From positions 791,852 to 855,851 of the forward strand of contig NZ_GG697169.2 in the NCBI RefSeq assembly GCF_000161835.1: 64,000 nucleotides of DNA, read 5' to 3'. This DNA is from Thalassobium sp. R2A62. Lineage in GTDB: Bacteria > Pseudomonadota > Alphaproteobacteria > Rhodobacterales > Rhodobacteraceae. The notes under the pieces were generated by a model, which was not told the DNA's origin, ran no database searches, and saw nothing but the letters and a program-made list of their open reading frames with translations. Positions within the stretch are counted from its first letter, which is position 1; the number at the start of each line of letters is the position of its first letter. Both the position numbers and the translations under genes were made by a program. Shown one piece after another: positions 45,421 to 57,575 of the stretch.

Positions 45421-45497
45421 GGGCCTGTAGCTCAATTGGTTAGAGCAGAGCGCTCATAACGCTTTGGTTGCGGGTTCAAGTCCTGCCGGGCCTACCA
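45421..45497 (+). tRNA. tRNA with CAU anticodon (probably Ile2, possibly elongator Met)
   Basis: A 77-nt cloverleaf: acceptor GGGCCTG with CGGGCCT, D arm GCTCAATTGGTTAGAGC, anticodon loop CTCATAA, T arm GCGGGTTCAAGTCCTGC, encoded CCA at 45495-45497. The variable loop and T arm resemble E. coli tRNA-Ile2 (TTGGTCGCTGGTTCAAGTCC), so Ile2 with a lysidine-modified C34 is favoured. An integrase remnant follows within 60 bp. Confidence 0.95.
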
Positions 45498-45553: not shown

Positions 45554-45730
45554 TTATTCACTGTGGGACACATTCTCAAAATCTATCCGCGACATCTTCT
45601 CAATTGCCTTCGCTGCCAAACCCGCTCTTTCGATTCCTTTGGTGTAAACTTCGGACGTCTTGGCCTCTGTGTGCGCCATCAAGCACATGATCTCATATTG
45701 AGTTGCTCCGGCCGCAGCCAAGAGGTTGAG
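45554..45730 (-). pseudogene. tyrosine integrase, C-terminal remnant
   Basis: The last 58 codons of a phage-type integrase, reading ...AAAGATQYEIMCLMAHTEAK then TSEVYTKGIERAGLAAKAIE up to a TAA. The spacing of HTEAKTSEVYT is the conserved box with the nucleophile tyrosine; the upstream MCLMAH holds the histidine. The remainder is lost where the IS3-type remnant begins (~45735). The gene reads toward the tRNA, as integrases of tRNA-inserted islands often do. Confidence 0.8.
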
Positions 45731-45783: not shown

Positions 45784-46500
45784 ATGGCGATTAAGAGACC
45801 CAAGCCCGAAGAGATAGTCGTGCAGTTACGGCAGGTTGAAGTTCTGAAGGCCCATGATCTTATCACCAGCCCTGCGTTCATCGTCATCAAGGCAGCCAGT
45901 GAGTTCAAAGATAAAACAACTGCTATCAATTAGCTTTGGCAGACCGACTTCACCTACATCAAGGTATTGGGCTGGGGCTGGTTCTATCTCAGTACGGTCC
46001 TCGACGATTACAGCCGCTATATCGTCTCCTGGAAGCTCTGCACTAACATGCGGGCTGAAGACGTGACGGACACACTGGACCTCGCTCTTCGGGCATCTGG
46101 TTGCGATCAGGTGCATATCGTCCACAAGCCACGCCTGCTGAGTGATAACGGATCAAGCTACGTCTCAGGGGATCTGGCGGAATGGTTGCAGGACAAAGGC
46201 ATGAAGCACTCGCGCGGTGCGCCATATCATCCGCAAACTCAAGGCAAGATCGAGCGGTGGCATCAAACCCTCAAGAACCGCATCCTGCTGGAAAACTACT
46301 TTCTAACGGGTGATCTCGAAGCCCAGATAGAAGCCTTCGTCCATCACTAGAATCATCAACGCTATCACGAGAGCATCAACAACGTCACACCGGCCGACGT
46401 CTACTTTGGCCGAGACAAAGCCATTCTACAGCAACGTGAAAGGATCAAACGAATGACACTCGAAGCGCGACGCTTGCATCACCGCCAGCACGCCGCATAA
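45784..46500 (+). pseudogene. IS3-family transposase remnant with two in-frame stops
   Basis: A continuous frame from ATG 45784 to TAA 46498-46500. It opens with an OrfA-like start (MAIKRPKPEEIVVQLRQVEV), then jumps directly into the integrase core (LITSPAFIVIKAAS onward), so an internal deletion is likely. TAG occurs at 45931 and 46348, where family members have NQLWQTDF and [12 protein letters not shown] residues TDFTYI, LLSDNGSSY and HPQTQGKIERWHQTL are still readable. Terminal repeats were not resolved. Confidence 0.85.
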
Positions 46501-46771: not shown

Positions 46772-47182
46772 ATGATTGAAGCTAGTGGCGGAGTGATTAA
46801 TTTTATAGCGATCTTAATCCCCACACTCATGTCTTTGTATTATGGGTTTAGATGCCTGTTCCAGACTGATGCTGCGATTGCTGAGTGGGGCATTGGTGCA
46901 GCGTCCGAGAACATGGTTAAGATATGTGGATGTTACGCTCTAAGTCAGGGCGTATTGTATGCGATTATCCTGTTCACCTCACCAGCAGGTGCTTGGGAAC
47001 TTTTTGCTTTCTCAACGATCTGGGCGGCTTTGTTTTTATACTTTAGCTATACAACCAAGAATAGCGCATGGGCTGAGATAGAAGGGGTAAATCCTACTAA
47101 TGAGCCAATCATAGTTAGCGGGATTATACTTGTCGTTCACTTATACATCATGTCAGCGATGAGCGGAATAATATACGCATAA
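46772..47182 (+). CDS. small membrane protein, paralogue A of an island pair
   Basis: 136 residues with four predicted helices. It starts MIEASGGVINFI and contains LYYGFRCLFQT near residue 22, then GAWELFAFS and AEIEGVNPTNEP. The protein encoded at 50574 has the same length and shares GG-NF, LYY, RCLFQT, GAW and EGV at matching positions, so the two are paralogues. AAGGAG lies 9 nt before the ATG. Codon use is AT-rich compared with the flanking core. No known family. Confidence 0.7.
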   Translation: MIEASGGVINFIAILIPTLMSLYYGFRCLFQTDAAIAEWGIGAASENMVKICGCYALSQGVLYAIILFTSPAGAWELFAFSTIWAALFLYFSYTTKNSAWAEIEGVNPTNEPIIVSGIILVVHLYIMSAMSGIIYA

Positions 47183-47341
47183 CTGACCAAGATAGCATCA
47201 TCCTGAATTCTAAATGCGCTGGGCGATCACTAAGTTTAGATATGGCGAAAGTTGTGACTTTACTTGAGGACCAGAGAACTAACACCCTTTGGAGCAAACT
47301 ATTCAGTGTCTGACGTCAGCGCTTATGGGTCCAAATTCGAT

Positions 47342-47896
47342 ATGCTTCACAAACTCATAATGACGCTATGCATCGTAGCGATAGTCCAACCGTGTTCTGC
47401 AGAGCAATCCAGGATTACAGCGTATGACAGAGAAGAGTTCGGACGCTGGATAGACCGTGACAGCGATTGCCTAAACACGCGGCATGAGTTGCTGGCCGCG
47501 CTGACTACTGGAGCATTGTCATATTCAGATAATGGTTGTCGGGTTCTGCGTGGTCGTTGGATTGACCCCTATACTGACACTATTTTTATGGATGCGAGTG
47601 ATCTTGACGTGGATCATTTGGTACCCCTGCATTGGGCTTGGCAGAGAGGGGCGTGGAGTTGGAGCCGCGAACATCGAGTAGCATTTGCGAATGACCCCAT
47701 AAACCTAATTGCTGTTGATGACGCCACCAATCGCTCAAAAGGCGCTAATGGGCCACTCGATTGGTTGCCTCCAAATGACGCTTACCAGTGTCAATACGTT
47801 CTTCGTTTTTGGCGGGTGTCCCGAATGTACAATCTTGAGATCGGCGACGATGAGCAAATGGCACTAGCGGAACAGCGTGAGAAGGTTTGTAGCTAG
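47342..47896 (+). CDS. exported HNH endonuclease (GmrSD/DUF1524-like HNH)
   Basis: 184 residues. A signal peptide (MLHKLIMTLCIVAIVQPCSA) precedes an HNH domain with DLDVDHLVPLHWAW, FANDPINLIAVDDATNRSKG and GPLDWLPPND, in the DUF1524-type pattern found in secreted nucleases. Cysteines at about 43, 66, 158 and 183 could form disulfides. It lies in the AT-rich island between membrane paralogue A and the redoxin-like gene. The role could be DNA scavenging or killing; nothing shows an immunity partner beside it. Confidence 0.8.
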   Translation: MLHKLIMTLCIVAIVQPCSAEQSRITAYDREEFGRWIDRDSDCLNTRHELLAALTTGALSYSDNGCRVLRGRWIDPYTDTIFMDASDLDVDHLVPLHWAWQRGAWSWSREHRVAFANDPINLIAVDDATNRSKGANGPLDWLPPNDAYQCQYVLRFWRVSRMYNLEIGDDEQMALAEQREKVCS

Positions 47897-48464: not shown

Positions 48465-48675
48465 TTTGAGGCTAGACGTTGGCAAGAACCTTGGCGATCA
48501 AACGTGTCTGACACACTATCTAGTAAAAACATGGTCCAGAATAGCCGCCTGAAAGTGGCCCACCATCTGGGATAGTTTTGTCCCCCAAATTGGAGGATCA
48601 GCGATGCACACCTCCGCTGCCTAAACTAGCGCCTAAGCTGAAATTTTCGACCACCAACCGAGTGTGACTGCAAAT

Positions 48676-49149
48676 TTAAAGCTTGTCGGCCAGCCACCAC
48701 AGAGGCGTTGGTTCAATTGTCTTAGTCACATGAATCTGGCGCAATCGATCAATTAACTTCTCTTGCAAGTCACCTTGTGCAGAATGAAATGGGCTGGTGA
48801 GTTCAACAATGTCCGGCGATGGGTTTCTAAATTCGGCAGTCCAACTAGCCAAGTGAAACAGAATAGGCACGAAAGCTATTCCAGCCTCAGAGAGAAAATA
48901 AAGTTTCTTCTGTGCATGATCGTCCGATTTTTGGACATTCAACAGGTCCAGCTGCACCATGTACTGCAGGCGTGACGAAAGCGATGCTGAAGAAATTCCT
49001 TCACGATTATTTTTTAAAATCTCGTTGAAGCCACGCCTGTCAAACAACGCTATGTCGCGAATAATTACCGGAACCCATTTATCAACTAGAAGATGCCCCG
49101 CCAGGCCAATCGGGCACATCTCCTTTTCTACAATATTTATGTCTATCAT
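48676..49149 (-). CDS. HxlR-family transcriptional regulator
   Basis: 157 residues. The winged helix has the HxlR layout: MCPIGLAGHLLVDKWVPVIIRDIALFDRRGFNEI (with the CPI cysteine), then ISSASLSSRLQYMVQLDLL and a KKLYFLSEAG wing. The extended C-terminus adds about 60 residues. GGGGG lies 6 nt before the ATG at 49149. It diverges from the dimeric-barrel/cupin/NTF2/membrane operon, so it is the likely regulator. The CPI cysteine may sense oxidants or electrophiles, as in other HxlR proteins. Confidence 0.85.
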   Translation of the reverse strand: MIDINIVEKEMCPIGLAGHLLVDKWVPVIIRDIALFDRRGFNEILKNNREGISSASLSSRLQYMVQLDLLNVQKSDDHAQKKLYFLSEAGIAFVPILFHLASWTAEFRNPSPDIVELTSPFHSAQGDLQEKLIDRLRQIHVTKTIEPTPLWWLADKL

Positions 49150-49464
49150 ATTAGCCCCCAAACCACTTTGATATACAGACTAGATTGCCAATCCGCACGG
49201 TGTCAACGTTGAAGGCATAGCCTTAAGAGCCACCTATCTGATGCAGCTACTGATTTGACTGATCAGCTAATGCTAACGTTTTTACTAGCTCGAATTGCGA
49301 ATGTCGCATTTTATGCTTTTGGGATCTCTTGGCTCCGAAACGCTGCTCGGGTAACGGCCCTCTTATGCACCGCTTTGCTGTATGGGGGCTTAGTCCGTTA
49401 AATAAGTTAACAGTACATAGCTCAGAAAATCAAGTGAGCGGCTAACGACGCGGGAGTACCAGTC
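49150..49464. other. 315-bp divergent regulatory region
   Basis: A non-coding, AT-rich stretch between the HxlR gene and the dimeric-barrel gene. It contains the short inverted repeat GTTAAATAAGTTAAC around 49397-49411, possibly an operator, and no open frame worth calling. Promoters for both directions are expected here, but no clear -35/-10 pair was identified. Confidence 0.4.
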
Positions 49465-49749
49465 ATGATAGTAAGACTAACTCAGGATTTATCTCATGGG
49501 TTCCAACCTTGGAAAGATATGTTCTACGAGAATGAGGCAACGTTAAATGCGCTTGGAGCGACTCTTGTTTTCGCCGGAACTGAGAAAGATAATGATAACA
49601 AGTTAACAGTCATAATCGATTTTGAATCTATCGAAGCTATGAAAGCTTTTGGTGGCCACGAGGAACTCAAGGAAAAAAGAGCCGCCGCAGGCGCTATTTT
49701 GGAAACTACAGTGATAACACAGATGAGTGGAGAGTCTTTCACTCGATGA
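49465..49749 (+). CDS. dimeric alpha/beta-barrel protein (DUF3764 / ABM-like)
   Basis: 94 residues, one ferredoxin-like unit. VRLTQDLSHGFQPWKDMFYE starts it, and LTVIIDFESIEAMKAFGGHEELKEKRAAAG fits the barrel helix seen in antibiotic-biosynthesis-monooxygenase-like proteins and DUF3764. First gene of the operon facing HxlR; the cupin gene follows after 91 nt. Function unknown; heme-free oxygenase or ligand sensing are options. Confidence 0.65.
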   Translation: MIVRLTQDLSHGFQPWKDMFYENEATLNALGATLVFAGTEKDNDNKLTVIIDFESIEAMKAFGGHEELKEKRAAAGAILETTVITQMSGESFTR

Positions 49750-49840
49750 CGCATCGACTAATTGGGATAAACTAAATAGCGATCGTTTGCATTATTTTAC
49801 CCCAAATTGCTCGTTTAAAGACAAAATAAGGAGTATAATC

Positions 49841-50188
49841 ATGCCAATTGAAGTTAAAAACTTTGCAACACAGGCAGACGAAGCCAAGGAAATGCCCAAC
49901 GCCCAGATGAAGGCAGTAAACGTTCTGGGTCAGCGTGTAATGAAGCTGACACTGGCACCAGACTGGAAATGGTCCACTGATATTAAACCGATAGTTGGGA
50001 CCCCCAGCTGTCAAGCAACACACACCGGTATTATTGTTGAAGGTACGATCCATTGCGTCTGTGATGATGGTTCCGAAGCAACTTATTCTGCTGGTGACGC
50101 TTACGCCATTTCGCCTAATCACGATGCTTGGTGTGTCGGTGGTAATCGTGCCGTTGTTTACGAATTTGCAGGGATGTGGGGAGAATAG
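49841..50188 (+). CDS. single-domain cupin protein
   Basis: 115 residues. After a short helix (MPNAQMKAVNVLGQRVMKL) comes a beta barrel with DWKWSTDIKPIVGTPSCQATHTGIIVEGTI, then YSAGDAYAISPNHDAWCVGG. Possible metal ligands are His in ATHTG and HDAW. AAGGAG lies 8 nt before the ATG. The NTF2-like gene starts 2 nt after its stop. Confidence 0.85.
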   Translation: MPIEVKNFATQADEAKEMPNAQMKAVNVLGQRVMKLTLAPDWKWSTDIKPIVGTPSCQATHTGIIVEGTIHCVCDDGSEATYSAGDAYAISPNHDAWCVGGNRAVVYEFAGMWGE

Positions 50189-50190
50189 AG

Positions 50191-50520
50191 ATGTCGCTGT
50201 ATGAAAAAATTAAGTCTGCGCAGGATTCCAAAGATATTGATATGTATTTGACCTGTTTGCATAAAGACTTTGTGTTTGTCCGCCATCAATCAGGTACTGA
50301 AGTTAGTAAGGCAGATTGGACTCCAACGGTTACTCAAATGATGCAAAGCGATGCTCTACAGTTCCATGATCAGAGATGCCTTTATGAAAATGATGAAATC
50401 ATGGTTGAGCATTCGGTCATGAAATTTCCAGATGGGACATCTGAAGCTGTGATGGTGGTTAATCACATAAAAGATGGGAAAATAATTCGCGTCGAAACTG
50501 GTGCGACACCACTCAAATAA
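50191..50520 (+). CDS. NTF2/SnoaL-like cone-fold protein
   Basis: 109 residues. The start MSLYEKIKSAQDSKDIDMYLTCLHKDFVFVRHQSG and the later ENDEIMVEHSVMKFPDGTSEAVM fit the NTF2-like fold used by SnoaL-type cyclases and stress proteins. GGGGAG precedes the ATG at 50191. It sits between the cupin and membrane paralogue B. Substrate unknown. Confidence 0.7.
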   Translation: MSLYEKIKSAQDSKDIDMYLTCLHKDFVFVRHQSGTEVSKADWTPTVTQMMQSDALQFHDQRCLYENDEIMVEHSVMKFPDGTSEAVMVVNHIKDGKIIRVETGATPLK

Positions 50521-50573
50521 TTTGGCCGCACTTATTCGAGACAAGATGCAACAATAATTAAGGGAGAATCAAA

Positions 50574-50984
50574 ATGGTGGAAAGTTTTGGTGGAAGCTTA
50601 AACTTTATAGTTTGGACCGTTCTTTTAATAGGTGCGCTCTATTACAGCTACAGATGCCTGTTCCAAACAAAAGCATTCGTTGATCAATATGGATTTGGTG
50701 ATAGCGCAATTTTCATGACACGTTTTGCTGGTACTCAAGTAGGTGCATCAGCGATAATTTCGCTCGCATTACTGTTTGTTGGACCGCAAGGTGCTTGGGC
50801 ATTTGTGGCATGGGGATGGACGCAATCTTTACTGGCTTCGATATTTGGGTACCAGACTGTGAATGGCGAATGGGCGAACGTGGAAGGCGTCAAGGCGACA
50901 GCCGAGGGTTACATAGCCCCAATCGTTTTCCTAATCTTGAACAGCTTATTACTCTTGAACATGGGTGATATCCTCTACGGCTAA
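50574..50984 (+). CDS. small membrane protein, paralogue B of an island pair
   Basis: 136 residues, four predicted helices, starting MVESFGGSLNFI with YRCLFQTKAFVDQYGFG. It matches the protein at 46772 in length and in conserved blocks (GG-NF, LYY, RCLFQT, GAW, EGV). AAGGGAG lies 7 nt before the ATG. It is the last gene of the HxlR-facing operon and suggests that this operon acts at or supplies the membrane. No known family. Confidence 0.7.
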   Translation: MVESFGGSLNFIVWTVLLIGALYYSYRCLFQTKAFVDQYGFGDSAIFMTRFAGTQVGASAIISLALLFVGPQGAWAFVAWGWTQSLLASIFGYQTVNGEWANVEGVKATAEGYIAPIVFLILNSLLLLNMGDILYG

Positions 50985-51013: not shown

Positions 51014-51039
51014 ACTCTCGGGACACTTCCTTTCATTGA

Positions 51040-51475
51040 TTTTCTGAGGAATTTCAATGCCGCTTTGTGATCCCAGCGTTGGTCACGTAGCTTTCAAGCA
51101 CCTCGCCCCCATGATCAACGGCGCGCCACAAGTAGTGCGTTTCACCGTTGATCTTCACAACAACCTCATCGAGGTGCCACCGCCAGTTCGAGTAGGCCGC
51201 ATCCAGCTTACACTGTTTTTGCGGATCTCAGATGCGAACAGTGGGCCAAATCTGTTCCACAAGAACCGAACCGTTTCGTGACTAGTGTCGATGCCGCATA
51301 CGTGATGCAAATCCTCAACAATCCGCAGCGAAAGCGGAAACCGCACATAGATCATAACGGCTAAACAGATGATCTCGGGGCTCGTCTTGAAGTACTTGAA
51401 TGGCCCATCTTTTTGTCATGAGCTGGCGTTAGGAGACCGCCTTGCTCGCCTCAAGCCGATTTGCTCTGACAGTGC
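51040..51475 (-). pseudogene. IS6-family transposase remnant
   Basis: Minus-strand frames still spell MIYVRFPLSLRIVEDLHHVC and SHETVRFLWNRFGPLFASEI, homologous to the left-edge IS6 transposase, but frameshifts break the first 20 codons and the part after EIRKN. The end near 51475 reads GGCACTGTCAGAGCAAATCGG on the minus strand, the IS6-type terminal repeat. The 3' half of the element is missing. Confidence 0.8.
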
Positions 51476-51566
51476 CTCAAACCTGCTTTATCACACCTTC
51501 ATCCACTCAAATAAGCGGTTCGTTGCGCGATTCCATTTTTCAACATCGCTGCCGCAAATCTTAACG

Positions 51567-52247
51567 CTACCGCCACATACATACAGACTTTGGGCATCGA
51601 TTTTTCGCTGAAATTGCATTCAGGGAAACCGCATAGCCATGCAGCGCTGCCAATGTAGTCTCATGTACTTGATTTGCGTTGGCCATATTAGGTTGGGGCT
51701 TACCGGCCGCGTCTGTATTTTTTAGGACCGAACAGGCAGGAAGCTTTTCGGCCGCTTTGGCGCACCTTGCGGCGCGGGCAGCTTCCTCCCTTTGCGCAAG
51801 CGCCGCTTCATTGTTGCGCGCGATGTGGGCCTGTTTGGCAAACTCTTTTGCAGCAAAAAACTTGTTTTTCGCTTCCTGATTCGTTGGCTGAGGGCGGTTC
51901 GCAGTACGGATTGCGTCGCTTGCCTGCTGTTCTCTTCGGTCGTTCGCGGACTTACGGGCGACGCTTTGGCGTTCTGTTTTCGTCCAAACCCGGCTTCGAT
52001 TGCCCTTTTTCCGGCGGTCCAAGCCGCGGTTCGCAGCGCGGCGGTCTGCAAAAGGTTTATGGTCGCGCAGTGCATAAAATGCTTCGTTGACGGCCACCAA
52101 AGCCTCACAGGCCACAGACTTTTCTTGATCTTTGGCAAGGTCAGGATGCAGAGTTTTGACCTTGCGACGCCACGCTTGACGGATGGAAACAAGATCATCG
52201 GTGGTACATACACCCAGAGTGTCAAAGATTGAGAGTTTGCGCCGCAT
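51567..52247 (-). CDS. J-domain (DnaJ-like) protein with basic Ala/Arg-rich C-terminus
   Basis: 226 residues. The N-terminal J-like domain has the HPD tripeptide in WRRKVKTLHPDLAKDQ (about residues 34-36) followed by ALVAVNEAFYALRDH. The remainder is highly basic and alanine-rich (RRKKGNRSRV, REEAARAARCAKAAEKL), unlike class A/B DnaJ. It could recruit DnaK to nucleic acid or membrane. The last ~20 residues (NRCPKSVCMWR) look unusual, and the C-terminus may have been reshaped by nearby IS activity. Confidence 0.7.
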   Translation of the reverse strand: MRRKLSIFDTLGVCTTDDLVSIRQAWRRKVKTLHPDLAKDQEKSVACEALVAVNEAFYALRDHKPFADRRAANRGLDRRKKGNRSRVWTKTERQSVARKSANDRREQQASDAIRTANRPQPTNQEAKNKFFAAKEFAKQAHIARNNEAALAQREEAARAARCAKAAEKLPACSVLKNTDAAGKPQPNMANANQVHETTLAALHGYAVSLNAISAKNRCPKSVCMWR

Positions 52248-52382
52248 CAGGAACCTCGGGTAAGTTATTTAAACTATAATTGGGATAAGTCTAAAATTGC
52301 ATCGAACCAAGCATTTCCTGAAAAAGCGGTTAATAAAGGGCTCTCATACGGACGATCAGTTGGGCTTTAGAGGCCATTTCTT

Positions 52383-53189
52383 GGTGCTGTCAGACAAATG
52401 CGAACTCGCCTCTGCCAGGACAGTGACGCTGCGCATTATGCCGCACAGAGATCGCGCCATTCAGCAAGAGCGGCGGTTCTGTTGAGCTTGAAATTGGCGC
52501 GTGAGTAGTGGTGACGTTCCTGGTTGAAATGATTGTAAACGGAGGCGTGAACGGAGACGAATTTCTGTAAACTACGCATATGACGAAATCGCAGCATTGC
52601 CCGTTCTTTTCGTCGAAACGGCAAGTGTGAATTCTCTGCTCGATTGTTGAGCCAGCGGCCGGTTTCTTGTCTGTCAGCATTGCCGATGACCTTCATCGCG
52701 GCACCGTAAGACCGCAGTAGGTCGGTCACGATGATTTCGGGTTTGCCGCAACGCTTCATTGTTTTGCTGAGGAATTTCAAAGCTGCTTTGCGGTCACGGC
52801 GCTTTGTCACATAGCCTTCCAGAACTTCGCCCTCATGGTCGACTGCCCGCCAGAAGGTAGTGCGTCTCACCGTTGATCTTCACAAACACTTCGTCCAAAT
52901 GCCATTGCCAATTCGAATGTGCCCGTAACTGTTGGACGCGCCGTTTGCGTATTTCAGCGGCGAACGTCGGGCCAAATCTATCCCACCAAAACCGAACTGT
53001 CTCATGGCTAATATCAATATCGCGTTCGTCAAAAATGCACAGTGACAGCGGAAATCGAACGTACAGCATTACCGGTAGGCCAATGATCTCTGGGGTGGTC
53101 TTAAAATAGCGAAATGGGGAGCGTTTTGTCATCACAAAACGCTAAACCGCCGCCCTGCCCGCCTCAACCAGTTTTCTTCTGACAACACC
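52383..53189 (-). mobile_element. IS6-family element, full length (807 bp) but frameshifted
   Basis: Left end GGTGCTGTCAGACAAATGCG at 52383 and right end (minus strand) GGTGTTGTCAGAAGAAAACT at 53189 are matching terminal repeats. Eight-base flanks (CATTTCTT and ACCAGCAG) differ, so no target duplication is seen. Its right end cuts an IS3 orfA remnant. Confidence 0.85.
52436..53132 (-). pseudogene. IS6-family transposase with one frameshift
   Basis: The N-terminal part (MTKRSPFRYFKTTPEIIGL to WHLDEVFVKINGETHYL) and the C-terminal part (FWRAVDHEGEVLEGYVTKRR to LAEWRDLCAA) lie in different frames. One extra base near 52855-52860 (CTTCTGG where CTCTGG is expected) separates them. Otherwise all DDE regions are present, including RSYGAAMKVIG and AENSHLPFRRKERAM. 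Confidence 0.88.
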
Positions 53190-53379
53190 ACCAGCAGTAA
53201 TACAGGCTCTCTGAAATGCCCTCACGGCGGCAAAAAACCGCGATGCTTTCCTTGCCACGCAGACCGGCCAAAACAATGCGGATCTTCTCCTCAGATGAAC
53301 AGGTTTGGCGCGTCTTACGGCGGATGTTCTCGACCACCTTGTCGGCAGCATCTTTCGATGTAGTCGGCTTCTGCGTCAT
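53190..53379 (-). pseudogene. IS3-type OrfA remnant cut by IS6 insertion
   Basis: Starting MTQKPTTSKDAADKVVENI, it continues RRKTRQTCSSEEKIRIVLAG, then VFCRREGISESLYYCW and is cut at the IS6 end. This is the helix-turn-helix OrfA of an IS3-type element. Its other half is not found in the window. The region upstream to 53480 probably holds its left end. Confidence 0.8.
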
Positions 53380-53481
53380 CTCGATCTCCGAATCGATAAG
53401 ATGAACCAGAAAACCTCCCTTGTTCAAATCCTCAAATCTGTCCAACGCCTGCTGACGTCAGGCACCTGCTCACTTCAAGCT

Positions 53482-53500
53482 GGTTTCTTCTGACAACACC
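53482..53500 (-). repeat. solo IS6-type terminal repeat
   Basis: On the minus strand GGTGTTGTCAGAAGAAACC, identical in its first 16 bases to the right end of the element at 53189, with no transposase attached. It marks a former insertion or a deletion endpoint. Confidence 0.7.
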
Positions 53501-55762: not shown

Positions 55763-55818
55763 ACGAGCACTTGGGGCGGCACAAAAGCGTGACAGGTCCA
55801 AGATGCTACGTTTATGGT

Positions 55819-56397
55819 GGTGTCCGACGAATTCGAACTTGTCTCTACGAGGAGAGTGATGCTGCGATCTATGCCACGCAGAGATCGCGCCACTCGGCAA
55901 GAGCGGCGGCGCGGATGAGCTTAAAGTGATGTCTGCCAGAGAGGCTGCGTTCCTGTTTAAATTGGTTGAAAACGGAAGCGTCGATGGAGACGAATTTCTG
56001 CAAGGTTCGCATGCCCCGGAACCGCTGCATGGCTCGCTCTCTTCGTCGAAACAGCAGACGGGAATTTTCTGCTCGACTGTTCAGCCCGCGACCAGTTTCC
56101 TGCCTTTCGGCATTACCGATGACTTTCAGAGCAACACCGTATGATCTCATTTTGTCGGTCACGATGATCTCTGGTTGGCCGTAGCGTTTCATTGACTTTC
56201 TGAGGAATTTCAATGCCAAACTCATACTTTCGGTCTTCGACATTGCGAAGCGAAAGCGGAAAACGCAGATCCATTTCCACAGCCAGACGGATGATTTCGC
56301 GAGACATCTTTAAAAACTTGAATGGGTCGTGTCTTTTCACCTGGCGACGCTAGGCGCCCGCCGTGCCTCTCTCGACCGATTTTCTTCTAACAACGCC
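55819..56397 (-). pseudogene. IS6-family element with internal deletion
   Basis: Both ends are kept (GGTGTCCGACGAATTCG at 55819; minus-strand GGCGTTGTTAGAAGAAAATC at 56397), but the element is 579 bp instead of ~807. The N-terminal part (MKRHDPFKFLKMSREIIRLA to SLRNVED) is joined directly to the C-terminal third (LKFLRKSMKRYGQPEIIVT to LAEWRDLCVA), removing the first catalytic aspartate. Its right end stops 2 bp from the DUF1501 stop codon. Confidence 0.85.
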
Positions 56398-56399
56398 CC

Positions 56400-57575
56400 T
56401 CATGTGCGTAAAATGCCATCTAAAGCGGTATCAACGTGGCTTGCAAACCTATTCTGGGTCAAGCCGAACCAGTCGCGTAAGACTGTGTGATACATAGTTC
56501 GATAGTCCAACGTAAATTCCATATCTCCATCACTAAGATTGCCTAGGTCTGGGTGTACACCCCAAATCCCACCGCTCAATCCACCACTCATCAAGAAATG
56601 CGGCGCTGCAGTACCGTGATCTGTACCCATTGAAGCATTCTCAACAGCGCGACGGCCGAATTCGCTATAGGTCATGACAAGTGTATTCTCCCAGTGACCT
56701 GACTGTATCAAGGCTTGGCGCAGGCCCTCAAGCCCCCTGCCCAAATCTCCTAGCAGGTCGCGGTGGCGCCAAGGCTGAGATTCGTGTGTGTCAAACCCGT
56801 CAAGCTTCATTTTTAAGACTGGTGCGTCAATGCCTGCATCGATGAGCTGTGCCGCCATGGCGGCCTGGCGCCCGAAGTCACCAGCATCGATCCGGAATGA
56901 GGAACTACGCGGGAGGCGTTCAACCTTAGCCGAAATTCTTGACATCGCAGTGTTTAGACTGTGGCCTCGGTCGAGGAGCATTGCCAGCGCCGGGTTATTC
57001 CCTCCAGATATGGTAGGTGTTTGCTCGCGCTGACCAGCCAGTGTCGCGAATTGGTTGAGAGAAGTCATCGACAGCCAGAGCCCCGATGATGCGGCGAACA
57101 CCCCCATGCCACCGTCCAAGCTAATCCCGTGCGCGTCCACCTCGGCTGCGTCGCGCATGTCCATAATGTCTTCGGTGAGCCAGCCGTTTACACCACTTTG
57201 AGAGCCGTCACCGCCAGTCTCCCATATAGCGATAGATTTGAAGTGGGATCGGTTTTGACCAGGGTAACCTAAGCCCTGAATGATAGCGAGGTCTCCTGCC
57301 TCCCAGGCATCGCCAAGGGGAATAAGCGCCGTGTGCAGCGCTAGGTTAGAAGTGAGCGTGAACCGCTCGTTCTTCCGTAAGTATATATTGGGGCGGATTT
57401 CACGATACCGCTCATCTCGATAGGGAACTACAGTGTTCAGGCCATCGTTTGCGCCAGACAATTCAACCAGAATTACTCTTCGTCCGCTCGACTGGGCTGC
57501 TTTTGCCAAATTGAGGGGTGCTAAGGGAATAGCAAGGCCGGCGAGGAGGGATTGAAGAATTTGACGCCTTTTCAC
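56400..57575 (-). CDS. DUF1501 exported protein
   Basis: 391 residues. The N-terminus MKRRQILQSLLAGLAIPLAP has a twin-arginine-like signal. The core RRVILVELSGANDGLNTVVPY, GYPGQNRSHFKSIAIWETG and TYSEFGRRAVENASMGTDHG fits DUF1501, a sulfatase/phosphatase-superfamily relative of unknown activity. It follows the DUF1800 gene by 9 nt. An IS6 end lies 2 bp past its stop, so the last residues may have been altered by the insertion. Confidence 0.9.
   Translation of the reverse strand: MKRRQILQSLLAGLAIPLAPLNLAKAAQSSGRRVILVELSGANDGLNTVVPYRDERYREIRPNIYLRKNERFTLTSNLALHTALIPLGDAWEAGDLAIIQGLGYPGQNRSHFKSIAIWETGGDGSQSGVNGWLTEDIMDMRDAAEVDAHGISLDGGMGVFAASSGLWLSMTSLNQFATLAGQREQTPTISGGNNPALAMLLDRGHSLNTAMSRISAKVERLPRSSSFRIDAGDFGRQAAMAAQLIDAGIDAPVLKMKLDGFDTHESQPWRHRDLLGDLGRGLEGLRQALIQSGHWENTLVMTYSEFGRRAVENASMGTDHGTAAPHFLMSGGLSGGIWGVHPDLGNLSDGDMEFTLDYRTMYHTVLRDWFGLTQNRFASHVDTALDGILRT

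Follow-up and report, generated by a model that had tools for sequence, protein, structure and literature searches.

A variable module of small barrel-type, cupin, SnoaL and membrane protein genes associated with an HxlR-family regulator in Thalassobium sp. R2A62 and related Alphaproteobacteria

Gene content of the locus

A 64,000-nucleotide stretch of the genome of Thalassobium sp. R2A62 (assembly GCF_000161835.1, contig NZ_GG697169.2, positions 791,852 to 855,851), hereafter the window, contains a compact cluster of small genes in which a regulator of the HxlR family is divergent from genes encoding a DUF3764 protein, a small cupin, a SnoaL-type protein and an orphan membrane protein (termed TM). 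We interpret this cluster as one variant of a mobile, mosaic module that is scattered through the Alphaproteobacteria and whose named carriers are largely marine roseobacters. Coordinates without a locus name are those of the window; loci and genomes used for comparison carry L and G numbers, respectively.

A preliminary description of this DNA had proposed five small genes, with the regulator diverging from the four others. All five are present as intact open reading frames where they had been placed, HxlR on the minus strand and the remainder on the plus strand, and their families are assigned by Pfam or by a predicted model in every case except TM. The same description left the 315-bp gap between HxlR and DUF3764 empty, and this part does not stand, since the gap contains the relic of a gene for a MAPEG-family membrane protein. 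The features of the cluster are as follows:

48676-49149, minus strand: HxlR/DUF24-family regulator, 157 amino acids (aa) (Pfam HxlR, E 6.2e-9)
49161-49184, no strand assigned: conserved 24-bp element AACCRCTTNNANNTNNARACTAGA, candidate promoter/operator, 11 bp upstream of the HxlR start codon
49177-49206, minus strand: putative HxlR promoter, with -35 TTGACA (49206-49201), a spacer of 18 and -10 TAGTCT (49182-49177), from aligned intergenic regions
49222-49395, plus strand: relic of a MAPEG-family membrane protein, residues 70-127 of 128 (tblastn, blastn)
49465-49749, plus strand: DUF3764 protein, 94 aa, of the dimeric alpha/beta-barrel type (PF12594, 24.5 bits)
49841-50188, plus strand: small cupin, 115 aa (Cupin_2 E 0.0022, below cut-off; predicted model and Foldseek)
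50191-50520, plus strand: SnoaL/NTF2-fold protein, 109 aa (PF12680, SnoaL_2, E 7e-7, 30.2 bits against a cut-off of 27)
50574-50984, plus strand: orphan membrane protein TM, 136 aa, four long helices predicted (no Pfam or NCBIfam match)

Successive genes of the plus strand, in the order DUF3764, cupin, SnoaL and TM, are separated by 91, 2 and 53 bp and each is preceded by a ribosome site of the GGAG/GGGAG type, in agreement with what had been claimed for them. Given these short gaps and ribosome sites, the four genes are likely to constitute one operon. The guanine plus cytosine (GC) content of the module genes is 0.40-0.48, compared with 0.552 +/- 0.022 in the 55 other genes called in the window, which bears out the description of the cluster as AT-rich. 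Comparison of the intact genes with homologs in L008 or L099 gave pN/pS values of 0.07-0.18, with pS near saturation in most pairs; by this measure the intact module genes appear to be under constraint.

Variable versions of the module in related genomes

The family-level sample comprised 394 genomes. When the genome of R2A62 itself is counted, genomes with a match to the cupin number 25, to TM 9, to DUF3764 11 and to HxlR 14 (E <= 1e-12), while SnoaL is represented in 13 of the 25 cupin-bearing genomes, to which its search was confined. The expectation that the same set of genes would recur holds for varied versions of the set in relatives and not for the set itself, as the exact five genes were not found together in any other genome searched. 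L008, from a Dinoroseobacter metagenome-assembled genome, encodes MAPEG-DUF3764-cupin-SnoaL-TM; no HxlR gene was found at this locus, which is otherwise the best match to the window. In L099 (G236) HxlR faces DUF6854-MAPEG-cupin-SnoaL followed by an unnamed 112-aa gene and DUF3303, in L097 (G369) it faces SCO4226-like-cupin-SnoaL, in L116 (G045) DUF3764-SnoaL, and in L102 (G375) DUF6854, after which the contig ends. The regulator of L098 (G383) faces a cytochrome c gene and several small genes, with SCO4226-like-cupin-SnoaL located about 3 kb away. L006 has SnoaL-TM, and a GYD-type gene precedes TM in L004, L005, L007 and L119 (above the cut-off in L119, below it in L005 and unscanned in the others). 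The parts seen are DUF3764, DUF6854, GYD, SCO4226-like, DUF3303 and DUF1330 genes, for small proteins of the dimeric alpha/beta-barrel type; a cupin; SnoaL; MAPEG and/or TM; and sometimes a divergent HxlR. Since the loci differ and the copy in the window is truncated (see below), we consider the genes to represent a variable module rather than the fixed five-gene system first proposed.

Pairs of module members within 5 kb of each other number 37, compared with 0.52 expected by random placement, and 23 compared with 0.48 when the genome of R2A62 is excluded. HxlR entered this count as its six closest matches only, and, because several pairs derive from the same cluster, the excess does not correspond to that many independent events. 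The identities to the window are uneven from gene to gene: in G369, G383 and G236 the cupin is 94, 90 and 87% identical, SnoaL 47, 48 and 78% and HxlR 35, 56 and 87%, respectively, so the genes of one operon seem to have different histories. This very uneven identity to single partners, together with a gene content that differs in almost every locus, could be taken to mean that the genes are chance neighbours, brought together by island assembly and having no joint function. Such a view is highly improbable, as pair counts are far above expectation, the order cupin-SnoaL is identical in the window, L008, L097, L098 and L099, and the combination is repeated in other families.

HxlR orthologs at E <= 1e-25 are found in six of the 394 genomes, that of the window included, in a search that was not confined to cupin-bearing genomes. 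In all six, genes of the module type occupy the facing side; they follow directly in five cases and come after the cytochrome c gene in L098, and a cupin is present somewhere in each of the six genomes. At ten more distant HxlR places (E 4e-22 to 2e-13) none of the searched module families was detected by tblastn at E <= 1e-4. The queries were cupin, SnoaL, DUF3764, TM, MAPEG, DUF6854 and five further small-gene clusters, and roughly 5 kb were covered on each side (less than 1 kb on one side of one locus); HxlR was recovered in each. Our longest-ORF caller (ORF, open reading frame) is crude and missed HxlR in several GC-rich loci, and the count for the distant places rests on tblastn. On these comparisons, this clade of the regulator is linked to the module.

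Some further arrangements have cupins or HxlR genes in other company. L103 and L104 (both in G175) contain many different small proteins, barrel-like in our own reading, beside cupin, SnoaL and TM genes; they include a family of 206-207 aa, and Pfam finds nothing in the one copy that was scanned. A recurring locus (L148, L150, L152 and L153) consists of a longer HxlR, a tautomerase and/or a bacterial-type globin, and a cupin. These loci resemble the window in possessing a divergent HxlR and a homologous cupin, 27-31% identical to that of the window, but their HxlR is 232-242 aa long, their other partners are different and no member of the SnoaL, DUF3764 or TM clusters was called in them. In L151 a distant cupin is located beside HxlR alone.

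Representatives beyond the family

Among 177 class-level genomes the SnoaL profile finds matches in five and the TM profile in three, the genome of R2A62 being counted in each. In G422, a 1.4-Mb genome from another family, a small gene, a cupin gene, a second small gene and SnoaL are encoded in a row, the cupin and SnoaL being 61% and 39% identical, respectively, to the nearest called members. The two small genes are unnamed by Pfam and our guess is that they encode barrels. The cupin-SnoaL pair appears again in G569, which belongs to the same genus; across the nine genomes sampled from this genus, several of them incomplete, the cupin is present in two and SnoaL in six. G552 encodes SnoaL-DUF1330-DUF3764 and G501 encodes SnoaL-DUF3764. 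A cupin or DUF3764 gene is thus nearby in three of the six SnoaL places outside R2A62 (G422, G501:C48 and G552:C3).

Carriage by plasmids or viruses was considered and set aside. A search of 72,556 plasmid records gave no match to SnoaL, TM or DUF3764 at E <= 1e-5, and the plasmid matches of the cupin and HxlR are less than 60% identical. No HxlR-named gene is found in seven cupin plasmid neighbourhoods (17 records matched), as listed in PLSDB tables that are incomplete and give one stretch without features. Scans of viral contigs confirmed no close relative of the cupin or TM. On a plasmid of the archaeon Haladaptatus halobius (L160, 3080-5247) the gene for a related cupin immediately follows one for DUF4242, and after another 0.9 kb or so there is an 'ester cyclase' gene; the combination is similar to those of the module.

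Mobile setting of the module

The following features flank the cluster or lie close to it:

45421-45497, plus strand: tRNA-Met (ARAGORN), a possible integration site and presumed boundary of the AT-rich region
46048-46350, plus strand: transposase remnant, integrase core (Pfam rve E 5.9e-9, rve_3 E 1.8e-8)
46772-47182, plus strand: TM paralog outside the cluster, 33% identical to the window TM
52436-52870, minus strand: transposase fragment, IS240-type DDE domain (Pfam DDE_Tnp_IS240, E 3e-29)

The module is located to the right of tRNA-Met, amid transposase remnants. In all five relatives measured, the cluster has a lower GC content (0.43-0.49) than the fetched locus as a whole (0.51-0.59), which points to transfer. 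The proposal that the genes form a portable unit is therefore upheld by low GC, by the position between the tRNA and transposase remnants, by the uneven identities and by clustering in other genomes.

Truncation of the operon in the window

The gap between HxlR and DUF3764 retains coding sequence for the last 58 residues of a MAPEG protein (49222-49395), which are 74% identical over 58 aa to the MAPEG protein of L099 and 62% identical to that of L008 (tblastn). At the DNA level 49227-49394 is 78% identical to the L099 gene over 168 bp (blastn). The L008 homolog is a clear member of its family (PF01124, E 2e-12), and the HxlR side of the window resembles the DNA of L099 up to position 49184. 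This C-terminal remnant indicates that the operon is truncated at its 5' end, a loss that the preliminary description had not noticed. The simplest reading is that a deletion took the N-terminus of MAPEG, together with DUF6854 if the ancestor resembled L099, while the same picture would result if recombination had joined the HxlR gene to an operon that was truncated beforehand. The copy in the window is a reduced one, and its expression may be altered.

It could be argued further that the operon, having lost 5' genes and perhaps its promoter, is the decaying remnant of an island and now has little function, whatever the module does elsewhere. The relic at the 5' end of the operon, the transposase fragments around it and the outcome of a simple scan, which reported no sigma-70-like promoter in 49207-49465, are consistent with this argument. 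However, HxlR, DUF3764, cupin, SnoaL and TM are intact, have low pN/pS and possess good ribosome sites, and we regard a decayed state of the locus as clearly unlikely. L144 (3907-6568, G325) provides a third MAPEG gene (47.9 bits), which is separated from a DUF3764 gene by about 2 kb.

The regulator and its upstream DNA

The winged-helix domain of the regulator scores 36 bits, against a Pfam cut-off of 20.8, and a sequence search for proteins of solved structure found two relatives, of which YodB (5hs7, E 6e-4) is the better. The conserved cysteine in a CPI motif, to which attention had been drawn previously, is confirmed: Cys12 (MCPIG) is the sole cysteine of the window protein, it is invariant in 6/6 orthologs, every ortholog compared has one Cys, and the residues read C12-P13-I14 in all six. 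This pattern is compatible with the sensing of electrophiles or oxidants. According to the sections available of one report, YodB, CatR and HypR of Bacillus subtilis respond to quinones, diamide and hypochlorite via a conserved N-terminal Cys (PMC6943732). The window regulator shares with these systems the HxlR/DUF24 (MarR/DUF24) family, the N-terminal Cys and a position beside genes for small-molecule enzymes, but the targets that those sections give are azoR1, yodC, catDE and hypO (PMC6943732) and not barrel, cupin, SnoaL or MAPEG genes. For B. subtilis HxlR, the part of the source at hand describes a formaldehyde switch in which a methylene bridge links Cys11 to Lys13 and which requires Lys at Cys+2 (PMC7835342). 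Family and Cys position are shared with the window regulator, whereas Cys+2 is Ile in all six orthologs, and a switch of this kind is unsupported because Ile replaces the required Lys. No ribulose-monophosphate enzyme is found among the ten window genes scanned by Pfam, which is a further difference from the B. subtilis system.

The element AACCRCTTNNANNTNNARACTAGA is common to the HxlR-side intergenic DNA of the window, L099, L102 and L098, that is to four of the six HxlR loci. The 13 loci that contain it, out of 205, are copies of four places, each beside an HxlR ortholog. The HxlR promoter that overlaps it was read by eye, and we call it putative because the consensus scanner did not report the TTGACA/TAGTCT pair. 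At about the position of the element L116 has a perfect palindrome, TGTCAT-A-ATGACA. A genome-wide scan of R2A62 gave a single site with 0 mismatches; a genome-wide regulon was rejected, as two sites with 2-3 mismatches are within the level of the reversed control. The distribution of the element fits a local, self-regulating role.

Properties of the encoded proteins

The match to DUF3764 is marginal (24.5 bits against a cut-off of 24, E 3e-5), and those to DUF1330 and Dabb are weaker and below cut-off. In the library of papers searched, DUF3764 is present in a single paper, as a name in a table. The cupin fails its curated profile (Cupin_2, 18.1 bits against a cut-off of 27.2, E 0.0022). Its best predicted model has a predicted local distance difference test (pLDDT) value of 71, the other four having 53-58, which corresponds to moderate confidence. 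A Foldseek search with this model gave 68 PDB matches at E <= 0.001 (best E 7e-5, TM-scores about 0.4-0.5), and most of the 50 PDB matches listed are cupins. A cupin beta-barrel fold is thereby supported with moderate confidence.

The alignments covered 21/25 members for the cupin, 21/25 for SnoaL, 16/21 for TM, 12/20 for DUF3764 and 6/12 for HxlR. The full metal site motif of cupins is HxH...E...H. It was not found in the 25 cupin members, which carry a reduced His/Cys set with His61 and His94 in 25/25 and Cys57 in 24/25. In SnoaL, His32, Glu66, Asn67, His74, Arg100 and Glu102 are invariant in the 21 aligned members; when all 25 are considered, one of which is a 54-aa fragment, Glu66 and Asn67 are present in 25, His32, His74 and Glu102 in 24 and Arg100 in 23. 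The conserved polar residues in SnoaL and the cupin suggest that both proteins have pockets.

The predicted model of TM has a pLDDT of 84. TM has no Pfam or NCBIfam match, and its model has no fold match in the PDB at E <= 0.001. A relationship to MAPEG is not supported, as Pfam gives no match and hhalign, run against 3 MAPEG rows only, returned a probability of 0.1% (E 0.75). The TM paralog at 46772-47182 stands away from the other module genes and is 90% identical at the amino acid level to L107 of G175, which likewise stands apart. In L201 (14058-16410) two adjacent genes of the TM family have as their neighbour a gene for a class III nucleotide cyclase that carries TPR repeats.

Barrel monooxygenases or cyclases, small cupins and SnoaL cyclases are encoded together in clusters for aromatic polyketides, for example TcmH, TcmI and TcmJ of tetracenomycin and SnoaL of nogalamycin. 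It is conceivable that the barrel, cupin and SnoaL proteins of the module likewise act one after another, in the biosynthesis or catabolism of a metabolite of aromatic or polyketide-like nature, and that HxlR is a metabolite-responsive switch. The co-occurrence in polyketide clusters, together with an AMP-binding (CoA-ligase-type) gene located about 2.8 kb after a DUF3764-SnoaL pair in L122, makes this tailoring role the main rival to the function proposed below, and the conserved His/Arg/Glu set of the SnoaL members would suit it. On the other hand, the MAPEG partner points to glutathione chemistry, and no polyketide synthase or CoA ligase was found among ten window genes in the Pfam scan, which was not extended systematically to the other loci. 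We consider a tailoring role somewhat unlikely.

Proposed function

Glutathione chemistry at membranes is a known activity of MAPEG proteins. This activity, Cys12 of the regulator and the conserved residues of SnoaL and the cupin favour the processing of an electrophilic or oxidised compound. We propose tentatively, and with rather less than even confidence, that the module is portable, is controlled by a cysteine-switch regulator and processes a small molecule that is electrophilic or oxidised, and that it originally included a membrane partner of the glutathione type. HxlR would occupy the element beside its own promoter and control both its own gene and the operon that it faces. Modification of Cys12 by such a molecule would release HxlR. 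The compound would in turn undergo oxidation, isomerisation or cyclisation by the barrel, cupin and SnoaL proteins, and its membrane-borne or glutathione-linked form would be dealt with by the membrane protein(s). In this scheme we infer the regulation by HxlR, the sensing by Cys, the joint pathway, the class of substrate and the chemistry. Detoxification and signal turnover would look alike at the level of sequence.

A looser arrangement is possible although doubtful, namely a scattered and shuffled 'small-barrel' kit, apparently of ocean Alphaproteobacteria, in which barrels, a reduced-site cupin, SnoaL and membrane proteins process one class of reactive metabolite and HxlR was added in some roseobacters. 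Most module loci, L008 among them, lack HxlR, so regulation by it would be optional.

Several other observations weigh, as that absence does, against a regulated, co-operating module with a truncated copy in the window. TM and DUF3764 frequently occur where the other module genes are absent; the SnoaL places G501:C35, G552:C1 and G512 have no cupin or DUF3764 gene nearby, and no other core member lies near any of the three TM places outside R2A62 (G534 and two in G552). Distant HxlR genes face a DUF1428 gene in L179 and a glutathione S-transferase gene in L176, and a glyoxalase-like gene (below cut-off) lies near that of L178; the close HxlR clade is thus not alone in having neighbours of the barrel or detoxification type. 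AACCRCTTNNANNTNNARACTAGA is absent from L116 and L097, the other two orthologous HxlR loci, its copy in the window has no perfect palindrome, and it may represent only the HxlR promoter. Finally, at 0.19 compared with L099, the dN/dS of the relic does not exceed the value for the intact MAPEG pair (0.24) and so gives no sign of long decay.

The proteins could also bind ligands without turning them over, as a sensing or buffering set tied to cyclic-nucleotide or redox signalling. The class III cyclase beside two TM genes in L201 (one locus) would be in keeping with this, as would two neighbours that we take to be of a binding-type fold, the SCO4226-like gene and the DsrE-type gene in L116. The cyclase cluster is, however, impure, its L155 member beside a cupin being a TPR protein with a response-regulator-type DNA-binding domain, and SnoaL and the cupin retain conserved polar residues. 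A purely ligand-binding set is highly unlikely in our judgement.

The library of papers searched contains no work joining HxlR with cupin and SnoaL, HxlR with SnoaL and operon, or antibiotic biosynthesis monooxygenase with cupin, SnoaL and operon, and its one paper on HxlR together with Roseobacter concerns a riboswitch. Cupin, SDR and occasional HxlR genes are reported among the neighbours of chlorite dismutase, in mobile settings, in the portion available of PMC9751292. A cupin family, an HxlR family and mobile settings are common to those neighbourhoods and the module, the cupins being compared by family name only, but no chlorite dismutase is found among the five module genes by Pfam. If the module of the window and its relatives serves one pathway, DUF3764, DUF6854, the orphan membrane family and this SnoaL subfamily would gain a shared, testable context, and the bacteria that carry them a candidate response to a reactive compound. 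It is possible that such kits are swapped gene by gene between genomes while the regulator clade stays attached.

Other features near the module

Beside the tRNA gene, a 55-aa frame at 45554-45721 resembles the end of a tyrosine recombinase by eye and has no Pfam match. A GmrSD C-terminal nuclease domain, which we take to be of the HNH type, is encoded at 47264-47896 (Pfam E 9.6e-15) and has a signal-peptide-like N-terminal stretch, so that it is perhaps a secreted nuclease. Degraded transposon-type repeat copies (D1-D6, 68-83% alike) occupy 51032-53500 and 55815-56400. A 65-bp stretch at 48542-48606 is 92% identical to L098 5670-5734, about 1.1 kb from the end of the L098 module, and may be the end of an insertion sequence beside the module in both genomes.

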